From Actinosynnema sp. ALI-1.44 (lineage in GTDB: Bacteria > Actinomycetota > Actinomycetes > Mycobacteriales > Pseudonocardiaceae), in the NCBI RefSeq assembly GCF_001984155.1, contig NZ_MTQO01000037.1:62001-126000 (forward strand): a stretch of 64,000 bases of DNA, in the 5' to 3' direction. Positions 7,691-18,467 of this stretch are shown here, in pieces (position 1 is the stretch's first letter; each line of letters begins with the position of its first letter). The position numbers and the translations under genes are program-made. The notes beneath the pieces were generated by a model. That model ran no database searches. It was not told the DNA's origin and saw only the letters and a list, made by a program, of their open reading frames with translations.

Positions 7691-10675
7691 GTGGAGTTTC
7701 GGCTACTGGGGCCGGTGCGGGCGATCAGCGACGGCAAGCAGATCGACCTCGGCGTGCGCAAACAGAGATTCGTGCTGGCGATGATGTTGCTGGACGCCAA
7801 CAAACTGGTGCCCGCCGAGCGGCTGGTCGAGCTGACGTGGCCCGACGAGGCCCCGCGCAGCGCACGAGGGGTCATCCACACGCATATCAGCAGGCTGCGG
7901 TCGGTGCTCAACGCGGCGGACGCCGAACGGCACGGTGTCGCGTTGATCAGCAACGGCCCGGGATACGTGCTCAGGTGCGACCCGAAGAGCATCGACATCA
8001 ACAGGTTCATGGACCTGTGCACGACCGCACGCGGCTGCCAGGACGACGAGGACCGCATCCGAATCCTGGACGAGGCGCTGGCCCTGTGGGACGGCCCGGC
8101 GCTGGCGTCGGTCGCCGCCGAGGAGGTTCGGACCAGGCTGACCCGGCACCTCGACGAGGCCAGGCTGCTGGCCATGGAGGAGCGCATCGACGCCCACCTG
8201 CGGCTCGGACGGCACGCCGAGGTGATCCACGAGCTCACCGAACTCGAAGCCGAGCACCCGTACCGCCAGCAGATCGTGGCACAGTTGATGCTCGCGCTGC
8301 ACCGCAGCGACCGCGGCCCGGACGCGCTCAGCGCGTACCAGAAGCTCTACCACCGGCTGGACGCCGAACTCGGCGTGGAACCCGCGCCCGCGTTGCGTGA
8401 CCTGCAGACCAGGATCCTGCGTGACGACCCGGCGTTGAACCTCAGCCCACGCGAGAAACTCAAAGCAGGTCCACGCCAACTGCCGCCCGACGTCGACCAC
8501 TACATCGGCAGACGACAGCACGTCGAACAGATCTGCCAACTGCTCACCCCGCACGACGGCGGCGTGCTGCCCGTTGTCGCGATCACCGGCAAACCCGGAC
8601 TGGGCAAGACCGCCCTCGCGGTCCGCGCCGGGCGGCGGGTGGCGGGCGAGTTCCCCGACGGCCAGCTGTTCATCGACCTGCAGGGAAACGGGCCGCGCCC
8701 GCGTGGCCCGAGCGAAGTCCTCGCCAGGTTCCTGCGCGACCTCGGCGTGGACGGCGCCGACGTGCCAGCCACACTGGAGGAACGGGTCGGCTTGTTCCGC
8801 GACCGCACGGCAGGGCGGCGAATCCTTGTCGTTCTGGACAACGCGGCGACCGAGCAGCAGGTCAGGTCGCTGATCCCCGGCAACTCCGAATGCGCCGTGC
8901 TGATCACGAGCAGGCGCAGGCTGACAGGTCTGGACATGCGCAGACTCGTCGACCTCGACGTGCTCAACCAGGTCGACGCGCTGGCGTTACTGGCCGATCT
9001 GGTCGGCGACGGCAGGCTGGTAGCCGCCGACCCGAGCGTGCGCAGGATCGTCGAACTGTGCGGCGGGCTGCCGTTGGCGTTGCGGATCGTGGGTACCAAA
9101 CTGCGCTCCCGGTCACACCTGACGGCCGCGGCCCTCGCCGCGCGCCTGGAGGACGAGCGGACCAGGCTCGACGAGTTGGTCGGCGGCGACAGGGAGATCC
9201 GCGCCAGCTTCCTGCTCAGCTACGACAGCCTCGACGCCGACCACCAGCGCGCGTTCCGGCTGCTGGCGCTGATGCCCGACAACGGCCTGCCACCGTGGGC
9301 GGCCGCGGCCGTGCTCGACGTGGACTTCCGCACCTCGGAACGGCTCGTCGAAGACCTCGTCGACGTCAACCTGCTCGAAGCCACCCCCGGCCGGTACCGT
9401 TACCACGACCTGCTCCGCCTGTACGCACAGGAAAAGCTTGCGACCGACGACGAACGCGACGCCGCGCGGACCAGGATGGTCAACGCCTACCTGAGCCTGG
9501 GCAAGCGCGCCGACGCGCTGCTGGAGTTCGGCGGGCTCTACCAGTTCGACGCGCCACCGTTCACAGTGGACGCCCCCGGCGTGCTCGACGAGCTCGACCG
9601 GGCACCGGCGGCCTGGCTCGACCAGGAACACCCGGCGATCCTGGAAGCCATCGAGCACGCCGCCGCCAACGACCACCACGACCTGACCTACCACCTGGCG
9701 GCGACCGTCGCGGCGTTCCTCGAACTGCGGGCGCAATGGGCGGACCTCAAACGCGTCGCGGAACTGAGCCTCGCCGCGGCCCGCAAGTCCGGCAGCCCGT
9801 ACTGGAAGGCCTACGCGCTGTTCGCCGTCGGTCTCGCGGCAAGGGAGACAAGGGACTTCCGCAACGCCGAGGAGTACTTCCGGGCCGGACTGGAAATCCT
9901 CCCGCAGGCCAACGACCCGCTGCTCGAAGTGGTCACCCTGCTCTCGGTCGGTGTGGCCCAACGGCTGCAGGGGCGGTGGAACGACGCGGCACGGTACTTC
10001 GACGGATGCCTGTCGGTGCTGGACGCCCTGGACACACCCCGCTGGCGGGCCTACACACTCCGCGAGTCCGGGGTGCTCGACCGCTACCGCGGTGAATGGG
10101 ACCGTGCCGAGGAACGGCTGCGCGCGGCGGTGGACACCTTCGAACGCCTCGGTGACCGGCGCTGGATCGGTGCGACACTGCGTGAGCTCGGCATCGTGCG
10201 GCGCGGAGTCGGCGACCTCGAAGGCTCCCTCGAAGTGCTGATCAGAAGCCGGGACGCGCTGCGCGGCGCGGGCGACCTGCGCCGGGAAGGCGCGGCGCTG
10301 CGCTGCCTCGCCGAAACCCACCGTGCCCTCGGCGCGCTGGCGGAGGCCCAAGCATGCGCCGAACGCGGACTCGACGTCCTCGAACTGACGCTGGACTCCC
10401 ACGGCCTGGCGTGCACCCAGGTGGTCCTCGCCGAGATCCTGATGGACGTCGACGACCTCGAAACAGCCGGAAAGTACCTGGACAAGGGCTACGCCGCACT
10501 GAGCGTCAGCGGCGACCCCCGGTGGCACGGCAAGGCGTTGATCACCCGGGGCCGCTACCTGGTGGCGTCCGGCGACGCGAACGGAGCCCAGGCAGCCTGG
10601 GACACCGCCCGGCAGATGCTGTCCGAGCTGGGCGCGGTCGAAGCCGAACACGTCGGTGAGCTCCTGGGACGTTAA
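7691..10675 (+). CDS. SARP/AfsR-family transcriptional regulator with NB-ARC ATPase and TPR domains
   Basis: A 994-residue protein started by GTG after GGGGAGG. Residues 1-95 form an OmpR-like winged helix (RFVLAMMLLDANKLV, GVIHTHISRLRSVL) and about 100-245 the bacterial transcriptional activation domain ending GVEPAPALRDLQ. From about 290 there is an NB-ARC ATPase with P-loop GKPGLGKT at about 299-306, a Walker B LVVLDN and a GGLPLALR motif. From about 620 to the end there are tetratricopeptide-like helical repeats. AfsR-type proteins of this architecture activate secondary metabolism or differentiation. There is no biosynthetic cluster immediately beside it, so the target is unknown. Its TAA stop overlaps the stop of the convergent gene (TTAA). 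Confidence 0.93.
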   Translation: MEFRLLGPVRAISDGKQIDLGVRKQRFVLAMMLLDANKLVPAERLVELTWPDEAPRSARGVIHTHISRLRSVLNAADAERHGVALISNGPGYVLRCDPKSIDINRFMDLCTTARGCQDDEDRIRILDEALALWDGPALASVAAEEVRTRLTRHLDEARLLAMEERIDAHLRLGRHAEVIHELTELEAEHPYRQQIVAQLMLALHRSDRGPDALSAYQKLYHRLDAELGVEPAPALRDLQTRILRDDPALNLSPREKLKAGPRQLPPDVDHYIGRRQHVEQICQLLTPHDGGVLPVVAITGKPGLGKTALAVRAGRRVAGEFPDGQLFIDLQGNGPRPRGPSEVLARFLRDLGVDGADVPATLEERVGLFRDRTAGRRILVVLDNAATEQQVRSLIPGNSECAVLITSRRRLTGLDMRRLVDLDVLNQVDALALLADLVGDGRLVAADPSVRRIVELCGGLPLALRIVGTKLRSRSHLTAAALAARLEDERTRLDELVGGDREIRASFLLSYDSLDADHQRAFRLLALMPDNGLPPWAAAAVLDVDFRTSERLVEDLVDVNLLEATPGRYRYHDLLRLYAQEKLATDDERDAARTRMVNAYLSLGKRADALLEFGGLYQFDAPPFTVDAPGVLDELDRAPAAWLDQEHPAILEAIEHAAANDHHDLTYHLAATVAAFLELRAQWADLKRVAELSLAAARKSGSPYWKAYALFAVGLAARETRDFRNAEEYFRAGLEILPQANDPLLEVVTLLSVGVAQRLQGRWNDAARYFDGCLSVLDALDTPRWRAYTLRESGVLDRYRGEWDRAEERLRAAVDTFERLGDRRWIGATLRELGIVRRGVGDLEGSLEVLIRSRDALRGAGDLRREGAALRCLAETHRALGALAEAQACAERGLDVLELTLDSHGLACTQVVLAEILMDVDDLETAGKYLDKGYAALSVSGDPRWHGKALITRGRYLVASGDANGAQAAWDTARQMLSELGAVEAEHVGELLGR

Positions 10676-11161: not shown

Positions 11162-12040
11162 TCAGCGGACCCTTTCGGTTTTCTTCCAGTCACGTTCAAG
11201 GGGGATCCGCTCCAGGATGCCACCCGCGAACACGTCGTACAGACCAGTTGGTTCCAGGTGGACATAGCCGATGTGGCAGTCACACGTGGACATCGGGCAC
11301 GGCCGGGGCTTGAGGGCGGCACGGAACGAACCGTCGTACAGGTTGCCGATGGTCCGCGGGACGAAATGGCATCGCCGGACCGTCCCGTCGCCGAGCACTG
11401 AGACGACAGTGTCCCCCGTGCGGCACGGCAGGCCCCTGCTGACGTGGGGGTGCCTGCTGTAGTGGAACAGCGGGTCGACGGACTGCCACTCGGCGGCCTG
11501 CTCGTCGGTGTACTCGTGGCCTTCGGCGGCGTTGACCCACAGGTAGACGCTGTCCGGCAGCGCCGCCCGCAACTCGCGGGCCTCGGCGAGGTGCTCCGGG
11601 ACGCCGACGATCCCCACGCTGAACCGGGCGCCCAGCCGCGTCAACTCCGCGCATTGGCCGAGGAAACGGTCCCGCGTGACCTGGGTGGGGTGGTAGGTCA
11701 CCCAGAACGCCACTGTGTCCAGGTCGCAGTCGGCGACCCAGGTCAGCCTGCAGCTGAGGTTGGTCTGGATCGCCACCCGCCGGACGTGCGGCATCCGGCT
11801 GAGGCTGACCATCGCGTCGCGGTACCAGGACCGCACCAGGCCCTCGCCCCACGGCGTGAACAACACCGACAGTTCGTCCGAGGTGTTCTCCCCGGCCCAG
11901 CCGGTGAACCGTTGTAACGCGGCGCGATCCGCGCGCAGCTGTTGGGTGCTGTCCCGCCTCTTCGCGAACGGGCAGTACGCGCAGTCATAGTCACAGGAAG
12001 CCAACGGGCCGCGGTAAAGCATGGTCAAGTGCACGGTCAC
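11162..12040 (-). CDS. STM4011-family radical SAM protein
   Basis: A 292-residue protein with a radical SAM [4Fe-4S]-binding triad C-x3-C-x2-C at Cys16, Cys20 and Cys23 (CDYDCAYC), very near the N-terminus. Further cysteines near the C-terminus, in the SLGDGTV-RRCHF region and the segment CPMSTCDCHIG, could hold an auxiliary cluster. The GTG start at 12040 overlaps the stop of the upstream radical SAM gene (GTGA). The family name comes from Salmonella STM4011 and is recalled from knowledge. Such proteins occur in a conserved cassette with the four genes upstream here. The substrate is unknown; SAM cleavage to a 5'-deoxyadenosyl radical is inferred from the motif. Confidence 0.85.
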   Translation of the reverse strand: MTVHLTMLYRGPLASCDYDCAYCPFAKRRDSTQQLRADRAALQRFTGWAGENTSDELSVLFTPWGEGLVRSWYRDAMVSLSRMPHVRRVAIQTNLSCRLTWVADCDLDTVAFWVTYHPTQVTRDRFLGQCAELTRLGARFSVGIVGVPEHLAEARELRAALPDSVYLWVNAAEGHEYTDEQAAEWQSVDPLFHYSRHPHVSRGLPCRTGDTVVSVLGDGTVRRCHFVPRTIGNLYDGSFRAALKPRPCPMSTCDCHIGYVHLEPTGLYDVFAGGILERIPLERDWKKTERVR

Positions 12041-13320
12041 CTCCGGTCGTACGCGGCCATGGCCGCACGGACAGCCGGGGAGAACAGCGACGGGCCGATC
12101 GCGTCCGACCAGGCGAGACCTTCAGGCGTCAGCCGTAGGCGGCCCTCGGTATCGGCGAGCCAGCCGCGATCAGCCAGCACGGCCAGCTCAGGGAAGTCCG
12201 CCGTGACGTCCGCGCCGAAACGTTTGCGGTACAGCGCTTTCTCCAGACCGTCGGCCTGGAGGACGGACTGCAGCAGATGCCGTCGTCGTTGTTCGGCGTC
12301 GTCGAGCCGGACACCCACCTCGGCCATGGCGAAGTCCGCGATCGGCCGTGACACGTAGTCGTCGATGATCCCGCGCACAGCGCGAGGGCCGACCGCGTAG
12401 TCGAACGAGTAGTGCATTCCCCTTGTGTACGAACGCGCCCCGCAGCCCAGCCCGACCATGCCGTCCGACTGGCACGAGTAGTCGTCCCCGCCCAGCGACG
12501 GCGCGTCCGCCCGCCGGAACATGCGCATGGACTGCTGTTCGTAGCCCGCGGCCAGCAGATGGTCCCGGCCCAGCCGGTACAGCCGCATCCGCTGCTCGTC
12601 CCACTCCTGCGGGGTTTCCCGTCCGGCGAGGCCCGTCAACGGACGAACGTACAACGGGTACAGGTAAAGCTCCTCCGGCCGCCACGCGAGCGCGGCGTCG
12701 ATGGACGCCAGCCAACTGCCGTCGGTCTGACCTGTGATGCCGTAGATCAGGTCGATGTTGAGCACGGGGACACCGGCGGCCCTGATCGCGTCCAGCGCCG
12801 TCTCCACCACGACCCGCTTCTGCGGGCGCACCGCTGCTTTGGCCTCGTTGTCGTCGAAACTCTGTACGCCGCAACTGATTCGCGTGGCGCCGCGTTCGGC
12901 CAGCACCGCGAGCCGGTCCGGTGTCGCGGTGTCCGGTGACGTCTCGACCGAGAACGGGATCCCGGGCAGGTCGACGATGTCCAGCAGGCGTTCCAGCTCG
13001 CCCGCGGTCAGGTACGTCGGCGTGCCGCCGCCGATCGCCGCCTGGACGAACGTGGCCCGGCCGTCCAGCTCCGCGCGGACAGCGGACGCCTGCCGCTCCA
13101 ACGCGTCGAGGTACCGGGTGACCAGTTCGGCGGGCGCCCCTGTCCGCGTGAACAGGTTGCAGAAGCCGCAGCGGATCTCGCAGAACGGGATGTGCACATA
13201 GTGGAACAGTGCGTCCCGTGGCTCGCCCGCCCAGATGTCCCGCAGCCGGGGGCGCGGGTCCAACGGGCGGTACGCGGTTTTGTGCGGGTACGCGTACACG
13301 TAGTCCTGGTAGGGGGTCAT
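12037..13320 (-). CDS. STM4012-family radical SAM protein (HemN-like)
   Basis: A 427-residue protein with the HemN/coproporphyrinogen-dehydrogenase-like motif YVHIPFCEIRCGFC. The cluster cysteines are 47, 51 and 54. The Gly-rich SAM-contact motif AAIGGGTPTYL and the downstream SVETSPDTATPD and LNIDLIYGITGQT segments are also HemN-like. It is a member of the HemN superfamily but belongs with the STM4012 cassette, not with haem synthesis, because its neighbours are STM4011 and STM4013-4015 homologues. Both ends overlap neighbours by 4 bp. The reaction is unknown. Confidence 0.87.
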   Translation of the reverse strand: MTPYQDYVYAYPHKTAYRPLDPRPRLRDIWAGEPRDALFHYVHIPFCEIRCGFCNLFTRTGAPAELVTRYLDALERQASAVRAELDGRATFVQAAIGGGTPTYLTAGELERLLDIVDLPGIPFSVETSPDTATPDRLAVLAERGATRISCGVQSFDDNEAKAAVRPQKRVVVETALDAIRAAGVPVLNIDLIYGITGQTDGSWLASIDAALAWRPEELYLYPLYVRPLTGLAGRETPQEWDEQRMRLYRLGRDHLLAAGYEQQSMRMFRRADAPSLGGDDYSCQSDGMVGLGCGARSYTRGMHYSFDYAVGPRAVRGIIDDYVSRPIADFAMAEVGVRLDDAEQRRRHLLQSVLQADGLEKALYRKRFGADVTADFPELAVLADRGWLADTEGRLRLTPEGLAWSDAIGPSLFSPAVRAAMAAYDRR

Positions 13321-14132
13321 GTGGAGTCCTCCACCACGAACTGCGCGTACGGCACCGTCCAGACGACCTCATGTCCCAGCCGGTGCCCGGTGTAGCCGTC
13401 TTCGCCGTAGGCGGTGCCGTGGTCGGAGCAGACGATCACGAAACTCGGCCTGCGCAGCGCGTCGAACAGCCGGGCCAGTTCGGCGTCGACGTACTCCAGC
13501 GCCGCGGCGTGACTGGCCAGGGTGTCGCCGTCCGCGGCGGACGCACCGGACAGGTGGAACCAGTTGGGCTGGTGCAGGGCGGACACGTTGAGGAACAGGA
13601 ACAACCGCTGGTCCCGCGGCTGCCCGGCGATGATCTCCCGCGCCTTGTCCACTTGGGATCGTGTGGAGTGCGGCGCTGTCACGCCGAACTCCGGTGACCA
13701 ATGGCTCTCCGCGAACATGCCGGGCAGGACGGACCCCAGCGCGCCCTGGTTGGTGAAGAACCCGACACCCCCGAGGCACACCGTGTGGTACCCCGCGTTG
13801 GCCAAACCGCCGACCATGTCCGGCGCGTCGTACACCCAGGTGCCGTCCGCTGTGCTCTCGCTGCCCGAGAACCGGGCGGCGAACAGCCGGGAATGCGGCC
13901 CCTGGCTCGCCGGTGTCGGCAGGAACCCCGCGAACATCGCAGCGTGCGAGGCGAACGTGAAGCTGCCCGGCGCGTGCCGCCGCTCCCACCGGCCACCCGG
14001 GATCAGCCCGGCCAGCACCGGCGTCCTGCCCTGCTCGGCAAGGGACTGCGCCACGTCGTAGCGCAACGTGTCGAGCGTGATCATGACCAGGTCGTGGCTG
14101 CCCACGACGGCGTTCATGTCGACCTTGCTCAC
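13317..14132 (-). CDS. STM4013-family sulfatase-like hydrolase
   Basis: A 271-residue alkaline-phosphatase/sulfatase-fold protein. The first metal-binding Asp lies in VMITLDTLRYD (about residues 16-26), the candidate nucleophile region is APGSFTFASHAAMF, and the second metal site is in VIVCSDHGTAYGEDG with a late His in HRLGHEV. It is short compared with true sulfatases (about 450-550 residues). The start GTG at 14132 overlaps the upstream TGA; a longer upstream reading only runs through the next gene in another frame. Within the cassette it probably hydrolyses a phosphate or sulfate ester, or acts as a phosphotransferase. Confidence 0.82.
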   Translation of the reverse strand: MSKVDMNAVVGSHDLVMITLDTLRYDVAQSLAEQGRTPVLAGLIPGGRWERRHAPGSFTFASHAAMFAGFLPTPASQGPHSRLFAARFSGSESTADGTWVYDAPDMVGGLANAGYHTVCLGGVGFFTNQGALGSVLPGMFAESHWSPEFGVTAPHSTRSQVDKAREIIAGQPRDQRLFLFLNVSALHQPNWFHLSGASAADGDTLASHAAALEYVDAELARLFDALRRPSFVIVCSDHGTAYGEDGYTGHRLGHEVVWTVPYAQFVVEDST

Positions 14133-15226
14133 AGGCGATCCGATGTCCTCGGCACGGCCAAGTCCACCCAGTCCGCGCAGGCGGCGATCTGGGCCTCGTA
14201 CGTGCTCATCCCCGCCGCCGGACCGTCGGGCAGGCCGGTGAGCCGCGGCAGCAGGTCGCCGAAGGCGTTCACCTCGCCGACCACGTGCCGCCGCCATCCC
14301 AGTCCCGGCAACAGATCCACCCCCACCATCAGCGTGCGGCCGAACTGCGCCGCCGCTTTCTCGCACGTGTCCAGCCATTCCCGCCACCGGGCCGCGCCGA
14401 TGACCGCGCGCAGTTCCGCCACGTCGACCCGCGCACCGCCCAGGTGCAGGTTCGTGATCGGATGGCTGCTGGCGCGCGCGACCGCGTGCGTCGCCTTGCC
14501 CGCGATCACCACCACACGCAGGTCGACGCTGCGCCCGCCGAGCGATGCCTTGGGAAACCAGCGTTCCACGTGCACCGGGTCGGCACACAGCCGATCGATC
14601 AACGCCGCCGCCTGCTCGTCGCGATAGGTCTGCACACGCAGGCTGTTCATCAGGCCGTCCGGCGTCACCGCGACCGACGTCGTCGCCGCCACCCGCGAGC
14701 CCACCGCGGTCAGTGCGACCACACCGGACGCGGACGAACCGTGCGCGGGTTTGACGAACACCTTGCTCCAGCGCCGTTCCCGCATCTGCTCGCGTAACGA
14801 CTCGTAGCCGTCGACATCGCCGATGGTCGGCGGCACCGGACAGCCCGCCCTCGTCAGCACCTCGTGGCAGCGCCGCTTGTCGAACATGACGGCTATGTCT
14901 TCGAGGTCGTTGAGCAGCCGCGCGCCCGGCGTTCCCGCCACGGTTTCGCCCAGTCGCCGCAGGCCCCCGGTGAACCCCTCGTACCAGGCGCCACTGCCGT
15001 CCGCACGGTACGGATGGGCCAACGACCCGCGTAACAGCCGGTCCACGTGCTCGTCCTCGCCGGGCGAGTCGACCCGGACGAGCGAATCGGTCGGGACCGC
15101 GCACGTCCCGGCCAGGATCTCCCGCCAGGCCACCACTTTCGCGGGCGGCAACCCGGCGGAGCGGACCGCGTCGGCGAACATCGCCACCCGCCGGTTGCCG
15201 GGATTGCCGACGACGACGAACTTCAT
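14129..15226 (-). CDS. STM4014-family ATP-grasp-like protein
   Basis: A 365-residue protein. The middle resembles an ATP-grasp fold: MFDKRRCHEVLTRAGCPVPPT, a nucleotide-binding Lys in KVFVKPAHGSSASGVV, and a late GVDLLPG-VVGEVNAFGD segment where metal-binding residues sit in ATP-grasp ligases. This suggests an acyl-phosphate-forming ligase, perhaps acting on a peptide. The ATG start at 15226 overlaps the TGA of the LRR gene (ATGA). It is assigned to the STM4014 family by position and overall similarity from memory. Confidence 0.8.
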   Translation of the reverse strand: MKFVVVGNPGNRRVAMFADAVRSAGLPPAKVVAWREILAGTCAVPTDSLVRVDSPGEDEHVDRLLRGSLAHPYRADGSGAWYEGFTGGLRRLGETVAGTPGARLLNDLEDIAVMFDKRRCHEVLTRAGCPVPPTIGDVDGYESLREQMRERRWSKVFVKPAHGSSASGVVALTAVGSRVAATTSVAVTPDGLMNSLRVQTYRDEQAAALIDRLCADPVHVERWFPKASLGGRSVDLRVVVIAGKATHAVARASSHPITNLHLGGARVDVAELRAVIGAARWREWLDTCEKAAAQFGRTLMVGVDLLPGLGWRRHVVGEVNAFGDLLPRLTGLPDGPAAGMSTYEAQIAACADWVDLAVPRTSDRL

Positions 15227-16158
15227 TCCGAGATCGCCGTGTAGTAGTAGGGTTCCGAGTCGCCGTCGTAGCGGTCGGGCTGCTGGACATCGTCCACATT
15301 GACCTCCACCCCGGCGCCACCGAGCGCCGAGACCAGCTCGGCGGACATCTCCTCGGACAGGAAGTGGTGGTGCAGATCGAGACTCTTCAAGTGGGTCAGG
15401 GAGAGCAGGTGCCGCGCGCCTTTGTCGGTGAGGATGCCCATCGACAGGTCGAGCGTCTCCACCTGCCGCACGATGGCGGACTCGGCGACCAGTTCGCAGA
15501 TCTCGTCCTGCCTGTCGCTGTTCTGCAGACCGAGCACACGCAGACTGGCGAACTTCCCGCCGTCCAGCAACGGCCGCAGGTCCTCGCGCTGCCAGTCGCC
15601 GCCGTACTCGTCCACACCGAGCCACAGCCGCAGATCCCGCAACGCCGGCAGCTCCGACCGGGACACCCCGCTCACCACGCCACGCGGCAGGCCGCCGGTC
15701 TCGATGCGCAGGATTTCCAAAGCGCTGTGCCGCACCGGTTCCAGCTCAAGACCGTCGCCGCCGCGGACACCGAGCTCGGTCAGCTTCGGCAGCGCGGTGA
15801 GCAGCGGCGTGATGTCGCTCTGCTGGATCCACGAGATCTCGTTCTCCTCCATCACCATGTCGCCGAGGAAGATCCCGGTCAGCGCGGGCAGCCGGTCCTT
15901 CGCGGCCAGGATGTGGTCGATCACCTGGTTCGACCGGTCGTCGTCACCGGGCTCACCCCACTGGCCGACGACGAGGGCCGTCACCGCCGACGTGTCCACT
16001 GTGGTGAGAAAGCGGTCCCAGAGTTCGGCGAACGTCTCATCGCCGTCCCACGGCTCGATCGCCAGGCGCCACGCCACCGGGCCGGTCGGCGGCTGCTCGG
16101 CGGGGAACGCCACCACCGGCAAGCCGTGGAACGTGGTGAGGTGTTCGTGGATGGTCAT
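15223..16158 (-). CDS. STM4015-family leucine-rich-repeat protein
   Basis: A 311-residue cytoplasmic protein without signal or membrane helix. From about residue 95 there are irregular leucine-rich repeats (LPALTGIFLGDM, LPKLTELGVRGGDGL, LPALRDLRLWLG, FASLRVLGLQNSD, LKSLDLHHH). The protein ends in a short hydrophilic and aromatic tail, EPYYYTAISE. It is the first gene of the cassette; the next four follow with 4-bp overlaps, implying one translationally coupled unit. An LRR protein beside two radical SAM enzymes and an ATP-grasp protein could be a scaffold or itself the modified substrate. That is inference. Confidence 0.8.
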   Translation of the reverse strand: MTIHEHLTTFHGLPVVAFPAEQPPTGPVAWRLAIEPWDGDETFAELWDRFLTTVDTSAVTALVVGQWGEPGDDDRSNQVIDHILAAKDRLPALTGIFLGDMVMEENEISWIQQSDITPLLTALPKLTELGVRGGDGLELEPVRHSALEILRIETGGLPRGVVSGVSRSELPALRDLRLWLGVDEYGGDWQREDLRPLLDGGKFASLRVLGLQNSDRQDEICELVAESAIVRQVETLDLSMGILTDKGARHLLSLTHLKSLDLHHHFLSEEMSAELVSALGGAGVEVNVDDVQQPDRYDGDSEPYYYTAISE

Positions 16159-16194: not shown

Positions 16195-17106
16195 TCATGC
16201 ACCCGGCCACCGACACTTTTCGCGCGTGCCCGCTGACCAGCCGATATCCGTGTCGTGCAGCAGAGCGGAGATGATCTCGGCGCCGCGCACGACCCGGGGA
16301 CCCGGCCGGTTGAAGTAGGCGGGCCCGTCCAGGACCCACACGGCACCGTCCCGCACGGCGGGGATGTCGGCCCACCCCGGTCGGCCGGTCAGCGCGTGCA
16401 TCTCGGCCCTGGTCCGCTCCGGCGGGAAACCGCACGGCAGCACAAGCAGCACGTCAGGCTGGGCGTCCACCACCACCTGCCACTCGACCGGACTGGTGTG
16501 CTCACCGGGGGAGGCGAGCAGCGGAACGCCACCGGCGTGGGTGATCTGCTCGGGAACCCAATGACCGGCGGGCCACACCGGGTCCAGCCACTCGATCGCG
16601 GCCACCCGCGGTCTCGGCCGCCCGGCGACCCGCGCACGCAGGTGCTCCAGCCGTGCACGCAGGGACTGGACCTGCTCGGCGGCGACGTAGGCGACACCCA
16701 GGATCTCACCGACCTGAGCGACGCACGCCAGGATCTCGTCGACAGTCCGTGGTTCGAGGCTGACCACCCGCGGGCCGACGTCCAGTACCCGCACGGCGTC
16801 CGACACCTGGCGGTACGACAGTGCGCACACGTCGCACAAGTCCTGCGTCAGCACGAGATCCGGCGACAGTTCGGCCAGCAGACCGGTGTCCAGCCCGTAC
16901 AGCGACGAACCGTGGTGAGCACCGCCGACAGCCGCGAAATTCTCCTTGCTGGTCAACGAATTGTCCACGCCGCTCGCGGTCACGACCGGCACGGCGGCGA
17001 CCTCGCGCGGCCAGTCGCACTCGTGCGTCCGGCCGACCAGATCCGGTGTCCGGCCGAGGACGTGCACGATGTCGGTGGCGGCGGGCAGCAGCGAGACGAT
17101 CCTCAT
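16195..17106 (-). CDS. BtuF-like cobalamin/metal-chelate-binding protein without signal peptide
   Basis: A 303-residue helical-backbone binding protein of the BtuF/FecB class. It starts [18 protein letters not shown] directly at the first beta strand of the fold and contains [25 protein letters not shown] and [11 protein letters not shown]. There is no secretion signal or lipobox, so it is predicted to be cytoplasmic. Many actinobacterial homologues share this and are annotated as cobalamin-binding proteins, although a transport role is doubtful. ATGA overlap with the metallophosphoesterase gene upstream; 36 bp separate it from the STM4015 gene downstream. Confidence 0.8.
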
Positions 17107-18233
17107 CCGGCCGCCCGCAACGTGATGACGGTGATCTCGCTCGGCGCGAAGATCCGGAACGGCGGACCCCAGAACCCGGTGCCGCGCGTGGTGTACAGCA
17201 TGGTCCGCGAACCGTGCCGGGACAGGCCGTGCACCGCGCCTTGGTCGAGCCGGACCAGGTAGTGGAACGGCCAGATCTGGCCGCCGTGGGTGTGGCCGGA
17301 TATCTGCAGGTCCACCCGGTCGACGGCCTGCCTGATCTGCTTGGGCTGGTGCGCGAGCAGAACGACCGGCAGGTCCGGGTCCGCGCCGTCCAGCGCGGCG
17401 ACGAGGTCGGCGCCGTGACCGTCCACGCCGGAGGCCTTCGCGGTCGCGTCGTCCACACCCGCCAGCACGAGCCGGGCCGAGCCGCGTTCGACGACGATGT
17501 GCCGGTTGTGCAGGGGTTCCCAGCCGAGATCGGCCATGTGGTCCAGCCAGGCCTGCGCTTCGCTGAAGTACTCGTGGTTGCCGGTGATGTAGGCCTTCGC
17601 CAGCCGGGCGCGAACGGTGCCCAGCGGAGCGGCTTGGTCCTTGCGGCGGGCAGGCGAGCCGTCGGCGACGTCACCGACGTGGCAGACGATGTCCGGGTCG
17701 AGCGCGTTCACCGCGTCCGCGACCGCTGCGGACCAGCGCGCCCGGTCAAGCGGGCCGTAGTGCGTGTCCGAGATGACGACGATCTTCGTGTCGGCCAGAT
17801 CGCCACCCAGGCCGCGGATCGGGACATCGGTGTGCCTGATCCGCGGGAGCCGCGTCGCCTCGTGGAAACCCCACGCCAGCAGGCCCACCGCGGCGACGGC
17901 GACGAATCCGGCGACGATCCGGGACCGCAGCGGGTCCGCCACACCGAGCAGGACGACGCCGAGCAGTTGGCCGAGCACGGACCAGCACAGCAGGACCCAG
18001 ATCGCGCCGAGGGTCGTGTCCCCGATCCGTGCCGCCCAGTCCCGGCCGTGCCTGCTGTGGCCCAGGTACATCATCACCGGGAACGACACGAGTGCGGCGA
18101 CGAACAACACGGTCCCCACCGCGGTCACGGCGCCGGGCCAGTCCGGCCCCGGTCCGAACAAGGTCAGCCACGGCACCCCGAACATGACCGACAACAGGGC
18201 GACCAGGACCAGTATCCGGACGATTCTTCGCAC
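17103..18233 (-). CDS. Membrane-anchored metallophosphoesterase (YkuE-like)
   Basis: A 376-residue protein with about four N-terminal membrane helices (first two: [20 protein letters not shown] and [20 protein letters not shown]). A calcineurin-like phosphoesterase domain follows. Its motifs are in order: [27 protein letters not shown] and [12 protein letters not shown], which together carry the dinuclear metal ligands. The start is uncertain. GTG 18233 is preferred because codons upstream (to GTG 18311) use TCA, AGA and GTT unlike the rest of the gene. No good Shine-Dalgarno sequence is seen for either. The substrate is probably a lipid or nucleotide phosphate at the membrane. Confidence 0.85.
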
Positions 18234-18467
18234 GATGACAACGATATCCGCGTGGGGAGTCAGCGGGTGACCGTCGCCGTCGGCGGCTCTCACCTGCGGT
18301 GACCGCGACACCGATTCTTAACGCGTTCGAGTCCGGGAAGGTATGGACACTCGACTATCGCATTCGGACAGTCACCCCGGTGACGGCGCCGTATCCGGTT
18401 GGTCTACTGTTCGCTCGCTACAACCGCCCAGGGGGGTCCTGGCGCCGACAAGAGGGGAACTGTCCGT

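Follow-up and report, generated by a model that had tools for sequence, protein, structure and literature searches.

A five-gene STM4011-STM4015 cassette with a candidate C-terminal modification site on its leucine-rich-repeat protein

The ATP-grasp ligases ArgX, RimK and LysX are described as acting on protein C-termini. LysX joins its substrate to the γ-carboxyl group of Glu54, the C-terminal residue of LysW (PMC10433800), and RimK extends the C-terminus of RpsF with Glu (PMC7343187). The pearlins are alike in idea, as amino acids are modified on the C-terminus of a carrier and one radical S-adenosylmethionine (SAM) enzyme is involved (available portion of PMC9303977). The ATP-grasp ligase fold is also that of the graspetide enzymes. 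Here we describe a cassette of five genes that encodes a leucine-rich-repeat (LRR) protein, an ATP-grasp ligase, a hydrolase and two radical SAM enzymes. It lies in a 64,000-nucleotide stretch of DNA from Actinosynnema sp. ALI-1.44 (contig NZ_MTQO01000037.1, positions 62,001 to 126,000), referred to as the window. We suggest, with a probability of about 0.5, that the enzymes of the cassette are dedicated to modifying the LRR protein encoded with them, at a C-terminal tail that ends in Glu.

According to the open reading frames (ORFs), sequence and translations of the window, the five genes occupy positions 11162-16158 on the minus strand and are transcribed in the order STM4015, STM4014, STM4013, STM4012, STM4011, with an overlap of exactly 4 bp at all four junctions. 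All five family models score above their curated NCBIfam cut-offs:

15223-16158, minus strand: STM4015-family LRR protein, 311 amino acids (aa), NF038076 at 362.9 bits against a cut-off of 275; proposed substrate or carrier.
15226-15243, minus strand: tail Tyr-Thr-Ala-Ile-Ser-Glu of the same protein, Glu being the final residue; proposed modification site.
14129-15226, minus strand: STM4014-family ATP-grasp ligase, 365 aa, NF038074 at 414.5 bits against 175.
13317-14132, minus strand: STM4013-family hydrolase of the alkaline-phosphatase superfamily, 271 aa, NF038075 at 412.8 bits against 250; predicted nucleophile Thr59.
12037-13320, minus strand: STM4012-family HemN-like radical SAM enzyme, 427 aa, NF006067 at 620.8 bits against 380.
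11162-12040, minus strand: STM4011-family radical SAM enzyme, 292 aa, NF038073 at 408.2 bits against 200; five further conserved Cys.

These coordinates and scores bear out the original prediction of five genes joined by 4-bp overlaps. Its gene labels were right about the composition; the label 'sulfatase-like' gave the correct superfamily and was otherwise misplaced, the predicted nucleophile being Thr and not Cys or Ser. The NCBIfam catalogue holds the same five families in the same order and single-strand layout, under names without function. The LRR tail, the multiplicity of LRR genes against single enzymes, the kinship of the ligase, the invariant Thr of the 'sulfatase' and the extra partners are added here. 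No published function for STM4011-4015 was found in the open-licence literature, including under the family names, DUF6745 and combined terms, in agreement with the earlier statement that no product is established. PMC3844500 lists a sigma-54 site in STM4013, and PMC2784778 also names an STM4011-4015 gene.

The cassette differs from each of the described systems. The carrier of the LysW/ArgW systems has ∼ 54 residues, whereas the proposed acceptor here is a 311-aa LRR protein and thus not a small carrier. LysW/ArgW systems use amino-acid-pathway enzymes where the cassette has two radical SAM enzymes. Compared with RimK-RpsF, whose ligase fold is also predicted for STM4014, the cassette has a proposed dedicated substrate gene within the operon, radical SAM enzymes and a hydrolase. 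PEARLs, the enzymes of the pearlin systems, use aminoacyl-tRNA, and the carrier is a short peptide. They are not known to be ATP-grasp enzymes. In contrast to the graspetides, the overlapping cassette genes leave no room for a precursor gene between them, and the proposed substrate is a folded LRR protein.

The tail was compared across 106 loci, comprising 18 stretches from 14 genomes that belong to the class of the window's own, the 80 top-ranked of at least 562 genome_contigs matches and 8 of 15 plasmid matches; close Actinomycetota relatives are over-represented among them. Gene starts in these loci were set heuristically, and gene ends are stop codons. With all rows kept, these loci gave 156 LRR proteins, all distinct, and every one of them ends in Glu (156/156). 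The motif [YF]-x-[AS]-[VILMA]-[SGTA]-E is present in 134 copies; the other 22 miss it and have the terminal Glu as well. At position -6 there is Tyr (127) or Phe (26) in 153 copies, -4 is Ala in 127 and -3 is Val in 139, while -2 may be Ser, Gly, Ala, Thr or Asp. Upstream of the tail, variability is high at positions -8 to -14 (entropy 2.6-3.2 bits), and the linker that follows the last LRR element is rich in Asp and Glu, with a length of 34 to 49 residues in the 110 copies where a pattern located that element. As a control we took neighbouring ORFs in the 80 genome_contigs loci, with a minimum length of 100 aa and passed through a third-position GC filter, some non-genes included; 51 of 1701 end in Glu, and the motif occurs in none of them. 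The cassette enzymes rarely end in Glu either (STM4014 1/99, STM4013 1/101, STM4012 0/98, STM4011 2/97). Beyond the 156, a terminal Glu is found in the window protein, in the Bacteroides (YPMITE) and Embleya (YTQVAE) copies, and in a Calothrix plasmid LRR protein (YCSVAE) that scores 259 bits, under the cut-off of 275.

An AlphaFold model of STM4015 (pLDDT, the predicted local distance difference test score, of 96.4) has as its best solved match 2ra8 (Q64V53_BACFR), a Bacteroides fragilis protein from structural genomics that carries an N-terminal region missing from the window STM4015. The 2ra8 chain and the LRR protein of the Bacteroides cassette align along their whole length, and the SYPMITE sequence of 2ra8 ends at residue 354 of the 362-residue construct. 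The eight residues past this point are presumably a tag, and the native chain also ends in Glu. One LRR member thus already has a crystal structure, deposited under the label 'uncharacterized'.

The AlphaFold model of STM4014 has a mean pLDDT of 92.1 (the predictions for STM4015 and STM4014 used 46 and 38 sequences respectively). A Foldseek search with this model gave 548 matches at E ≤ 0.001, of which the best 50 were considered. The top matches are ArgX (3vpb, solved with LysW), RimK (5zct) and LysX (3vpd), followed by the graspetide ligase PsnB; RimK with RpsF and LysX/ArgX with LysW-γ-AAA are also among the matches listed. As judged from the model, STM4014 shares the RimK/LysX-type ATP-grasp fold. 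In an alignment of 100 STM4014 sequences, D304, E318 and N320 are kept by 97% or more, and we take them to be the metal ligands. Against the sequences of solved structures, STM4014 gave only two weak cyanophycin synthase matches (E 0.085). Our central argument is that a ligase of predicted LysX/RimK fold is encoded beside an LRR protein whose last residue is Glu in every copy.

The same Foldseek matches raise a graspetide-like alternative, in which STM4014 would form lactam or ester links within the acidic linker and tail. PsnB and MdnC are both among the matches listed, the linker offers many Asp and Glu residues, and the Bacteroides STM4014 weakly matches TIGR04187 (19.3 bits against a cut-off of 350). 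The linker, however, is conserved in neither sequence nor length, and Gly, Ala or Asp takes position -2 in 81 of the 156 copies, which leaves no fixed Ser/Thr partner beside the Glu. The window STM4014 has no graspetide-model match at E ≤ 0.001, and we consider this alternative very improbable.

Copy numbers also set the LRR genes apart from the enzymes. In the 97 loci that hold all four enzymes, there is one LRR gene in 58, two in 31, three in one, four in one, five in two and six in two; the two loci with none both lie at contig starts. Each enzyme is present once per cassette, so that substrate-like genes multiply (up to six) while the enzymes stay single. LRR pairs from the same locus (n = 91) share 40-83% identity in the body (median 56%) and a median of 83% over the last six residues. 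Four stretches (L045-L048), all from cassette-bearing genomes, contain an LRR gene with no enzymes nearby, although in L048 (genome G037) the contig begins close to the gene, and enzymes could lie next to it. Locus L128 has one further LRR gene on the opposite strand, and the window's genome has a single STM4015 copy. An invariant C-terminal Glu behind a variable linker, the kinship of the ligase and the multiplicity of LRR genes together support the modification of the LRR protein. The original prediction had proposed chemical modification of a macromolecule or peptide and named no substrate site; the tail Glu, ligase fold and LRR multiplicity strengthen that proposal, which still draws on sequence and predicted structure.

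Multiplicity bears as well on whether the product leaves the protein. Like LysW and the pearlin peptides, the LRR protein could be a tether that is used again and again: a small molecule would be built on its C-terminal Glu and then released as a free metabolite. The LysX/ArgX-like fold of the ligase and the C-terminal Glu of the LRR protein would suit such a carrier, and the pearlins offer a precedent for the tailoring of amino acids at the C-terminus of a carrier, a radical SAM enzyme being among those involved. A tether has no need, however, of up to six paralogs per enzyme set, and family scans of the five genes found no peptidase among them. We therefore lean towards a modified group that stays on the LRR protein, and regard release as unlikely. 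More tentatively, STM4014 together with STM4011 and STM4012 may build a novel group on the C-terminal Glu of a family of LRR proteins, each paralog showing the same head group to its own partner; this would be a new class of protein maturation, a possibility that we rate below the modification reading itself.

If the LRR protein is the substrate, its folded domain would serve as a recognition platform and its last ∼ 6 residues as the reaction site. STM4014 would phosphorylate a carboxylate of the C-terminal Glu and join it to an amine, either an amino acid or another small molecule. STM4011 and STM4012 might then rework the attached unit or the neighbouring Tyr, Ala or Val residues, and STM4013, by means of its predicted Thr nucleophile, could make or break a phosphoester on the pathway. 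We infer the tail as substrate, the order of steps, the amine, the product and the chemistry as a whole by this reasoning. A large folded protein would then join the known C-terminal acceptors of RimK-type ligases, and ATP-grasp ligation would be coupled to two radical SAM steps. The families have so far been named as unknown, and a proposed substrate and site make the cassette directly testable on the last residues of a soluble LRR protein.

Several observations weigh against modification of the tail. The identity of STM4014 to the listed solved ligases is 14-20%, with template-modelling (TM) scores of ∼ 0.5-0.6 over the query, and graspetide, D-cycloserine and D-Ala-D-Ala ligases are found among the same listed matches. 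The window STM4014 also falls far under the cut-offs of rimK_fam (28.3 against 143.4) and LysX_arch (23.2 against 275.6). The most divergent tail, NAMYTE of Salmonella, clearly keeps only the final T-E. The 156 LRR copies are not independent, because the sample is dominated by Actinomycetota. Many residues of the LRR body are conserved too, which fits a simple binding protein. Finally, the AlphaFold confidence of the tail is high (mean pLDDT 94 for residues 301-310 and 79 for Glu311), and the tail may therefore lie against the LRR domain in a structural role; this is the strongest argument for such a role over that of a modification site.

These last points are consistent with an adaptor or regulator, an LRR protein that is not a substrate and whose tail is a structural cap or docking signal, the enzymes acting on another molecule. 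Two further proteins found near many cassettes, DUF6745 (PF20530) and a protein of 98-108 aa, also have fixed C-terminal residues (in DUF6745, Tyr at -7 and Pro at -5 in 73/73), so that a fixed end alone is no proof of modification. A cap, however, gives no obvious need for a Glu stop in 156/156 copies behind a segment of varying length, and the nearest structural relatives of the ligase include enzymes solved with LysW and with RpsF. We find the adaptor doubtful and retain modification at the C-terminal Glu as the preferred reading.

Of 101 loci with STM4013, 71 have both DUF6745 and the 98-108-aa protein, four have one of them and 26 have neither; both occur together in many of L031-L128, and in L129 and L131-L133. 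The front half of the DUF6745 protein weakly resembles LRR proteins, and the 98-108-aa protein has no Pfam or NCBIfam match at E ≤ 0.01. Among 148 genomes of the same class, DUF6745 scores above its cut-off in 10; the six with more than 300 bits all have the cassette and the other four, at 107 bits or less, do not. Both proteins are absent from the window, and a search of the window's genome gave no match to DUF6745; we rejected them as parts of the window's own system.

The cassette itself is real and tightly conserved, and its grouping goes beyond chance. In a profile search of the 148 class genomes, all five families score above their cut-offs in an identical set of 15, which includes the window's own genome, and none does so in the other 133. 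Conserved co-occurrence, on which the original prediction had staked the cassette, is thus found. Its clean form depends on the curated cut-offs, because weak relatives match many genomes below them: at E ≤ 0.001 without cut-offs, STM4015 matches 16 of the 148 genomes, STM4014 62, STM4013 29, STM4011 16 and STM4012 143. The enzyme order 4014-4013-4012-4011 is kept in 97/97 loci holding all four enzymes, counting genes on the strand of STM4013, and in these loci LRR genes, where present on that strand, precede the enzymes.

The recurrence of the cassette in distant bacteria, also claimed earlier, is confirmed by complete copies in Actinomycetota, Deinococcota, Bacillota and Pseudomonadota. Complete distant cassettes are carried on plasmids of Methylobacterium, Paenibacillus, Deinococcus (three) and Salmonella. 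The Bacteroidota copy has two genes as remnants: a Bacteroides plasmid keeps STM4015, STM4014 and STM4011, with only STM4013-like and STM4012-like remnants between them. Near (megablast) matches to the Salmonella cassette were absent from 20,395 E. coli records.

For STM4013, the best matches among solved sequences are phosphodiesterase-nucleotide pyrophosphatases (NPPs; E 1.2e-06), followed by choline-sulfatases and an arylsulfatase (E 0.006-0.008). In Pfam, Sulfatase (PF00884, 44.7 bits) scores above Phosphodiest (28.2 bits). In the alignment to 2gsn, the Thr of the SLTFPNH stretch stands opposite T59; this stretch is weak on its own (E 0.71, against 1.2e-06 for the whole match). T59, H63, H187, D216, D237, H238 and H254 are invariant in 102/102 aligned sequences, and D21 is present in 101/102. 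True formylglycine sulfatases have a Cys or Ser nucleophile motif, whereas NPP-type phosphodiesterases combine a Thr nucleophile with the metal ligands of the alkaline-phosphatase superfamily. Because T59 and the His/Asp residues are invariant, STM4013 is likely to be an active Thr-nucleophile phosphoester enzyme and not a formylglycine sulfatase. True sulfatase activity was rejected as unlikely, despite the top Pfam match, given a predicted Thr nucleophile in all 102 sequences.

STM4012 has the radical SAM (PF04055) and HemN_C (PF06969) domains above their gathering scores, and lies far below the equivalog cut-offs for HemW (128.5/205.4), HemN (112.9/324.95) and ChuW/HutW (126.9/400). In STM4011 the CX3CX2C motif (C16, C20, C23) is present in 98/98 aligned sequences, and five more Cys are nearly as constant (C206 in 97, C224 in 98, C248 in 98, C253 in 96 and C255 in 98). 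A full SPASM domain has seven Cys. The five extra Cys of STM4011 appear to resemble such a domain without completing it, as an auxiliary-cluster-like set. STM4011 has no Pfam match at E ≤ 0.05 and no match among solved-structure sequences at E ≤ 0.1.

A Cof-type haloacid dehalogenase (HAD) phosphatase is fused to STM4011 in Bacteroides (L141:9817-11760) and encoded after STM4011 in Salmonella (L134:9916-10650). Upstream of the window cassette (16195-18311) lie a gene for a periplasmic-binding-protein-like protein (PF01497) and a metallophosphoesterase gene (PF00149). A role in anti-phage defence was considered and rejected, PADLOC giving a single weak match (STM4012, 18.5 bits).

The presence of STM4013 does not by itself indicate the cassette: in L109, L135 and L136, three of 101 loci with the gene, it stands alone, and genome G073 carries a second copy outside its cassette. 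Three records of a phage collection match STM4013, one under a Salmonella strain name and two short and unannotated. In Planotetraspora silvatica (L109:8452-9315), the other four cassette genes have no match within the 19-kb locus around STM4013. The family has a second setting beside a Nudix hydrolase (L136:4831-8250, L139:447-3838, L135:6968-8297), which looks like an uncharacterised nucleotide-related pathway. L136 also encodes a MoaA-like radical SAM protein, a thymidylate-kinase-like protein and a small protein, and L139 resembles it by eye; in L135 the Nudix gene is accompanied by a gene annotated as lasso peptide B2 protein. L135 is a Streptomyces albidoflavus plasmid, on which a short-repeat array (8886-10040) lies near a Cas3 gene and the divergent STM4013, and by eye looks like a CRISPR (clustered regularly interspaced short palindromic repeats) array.

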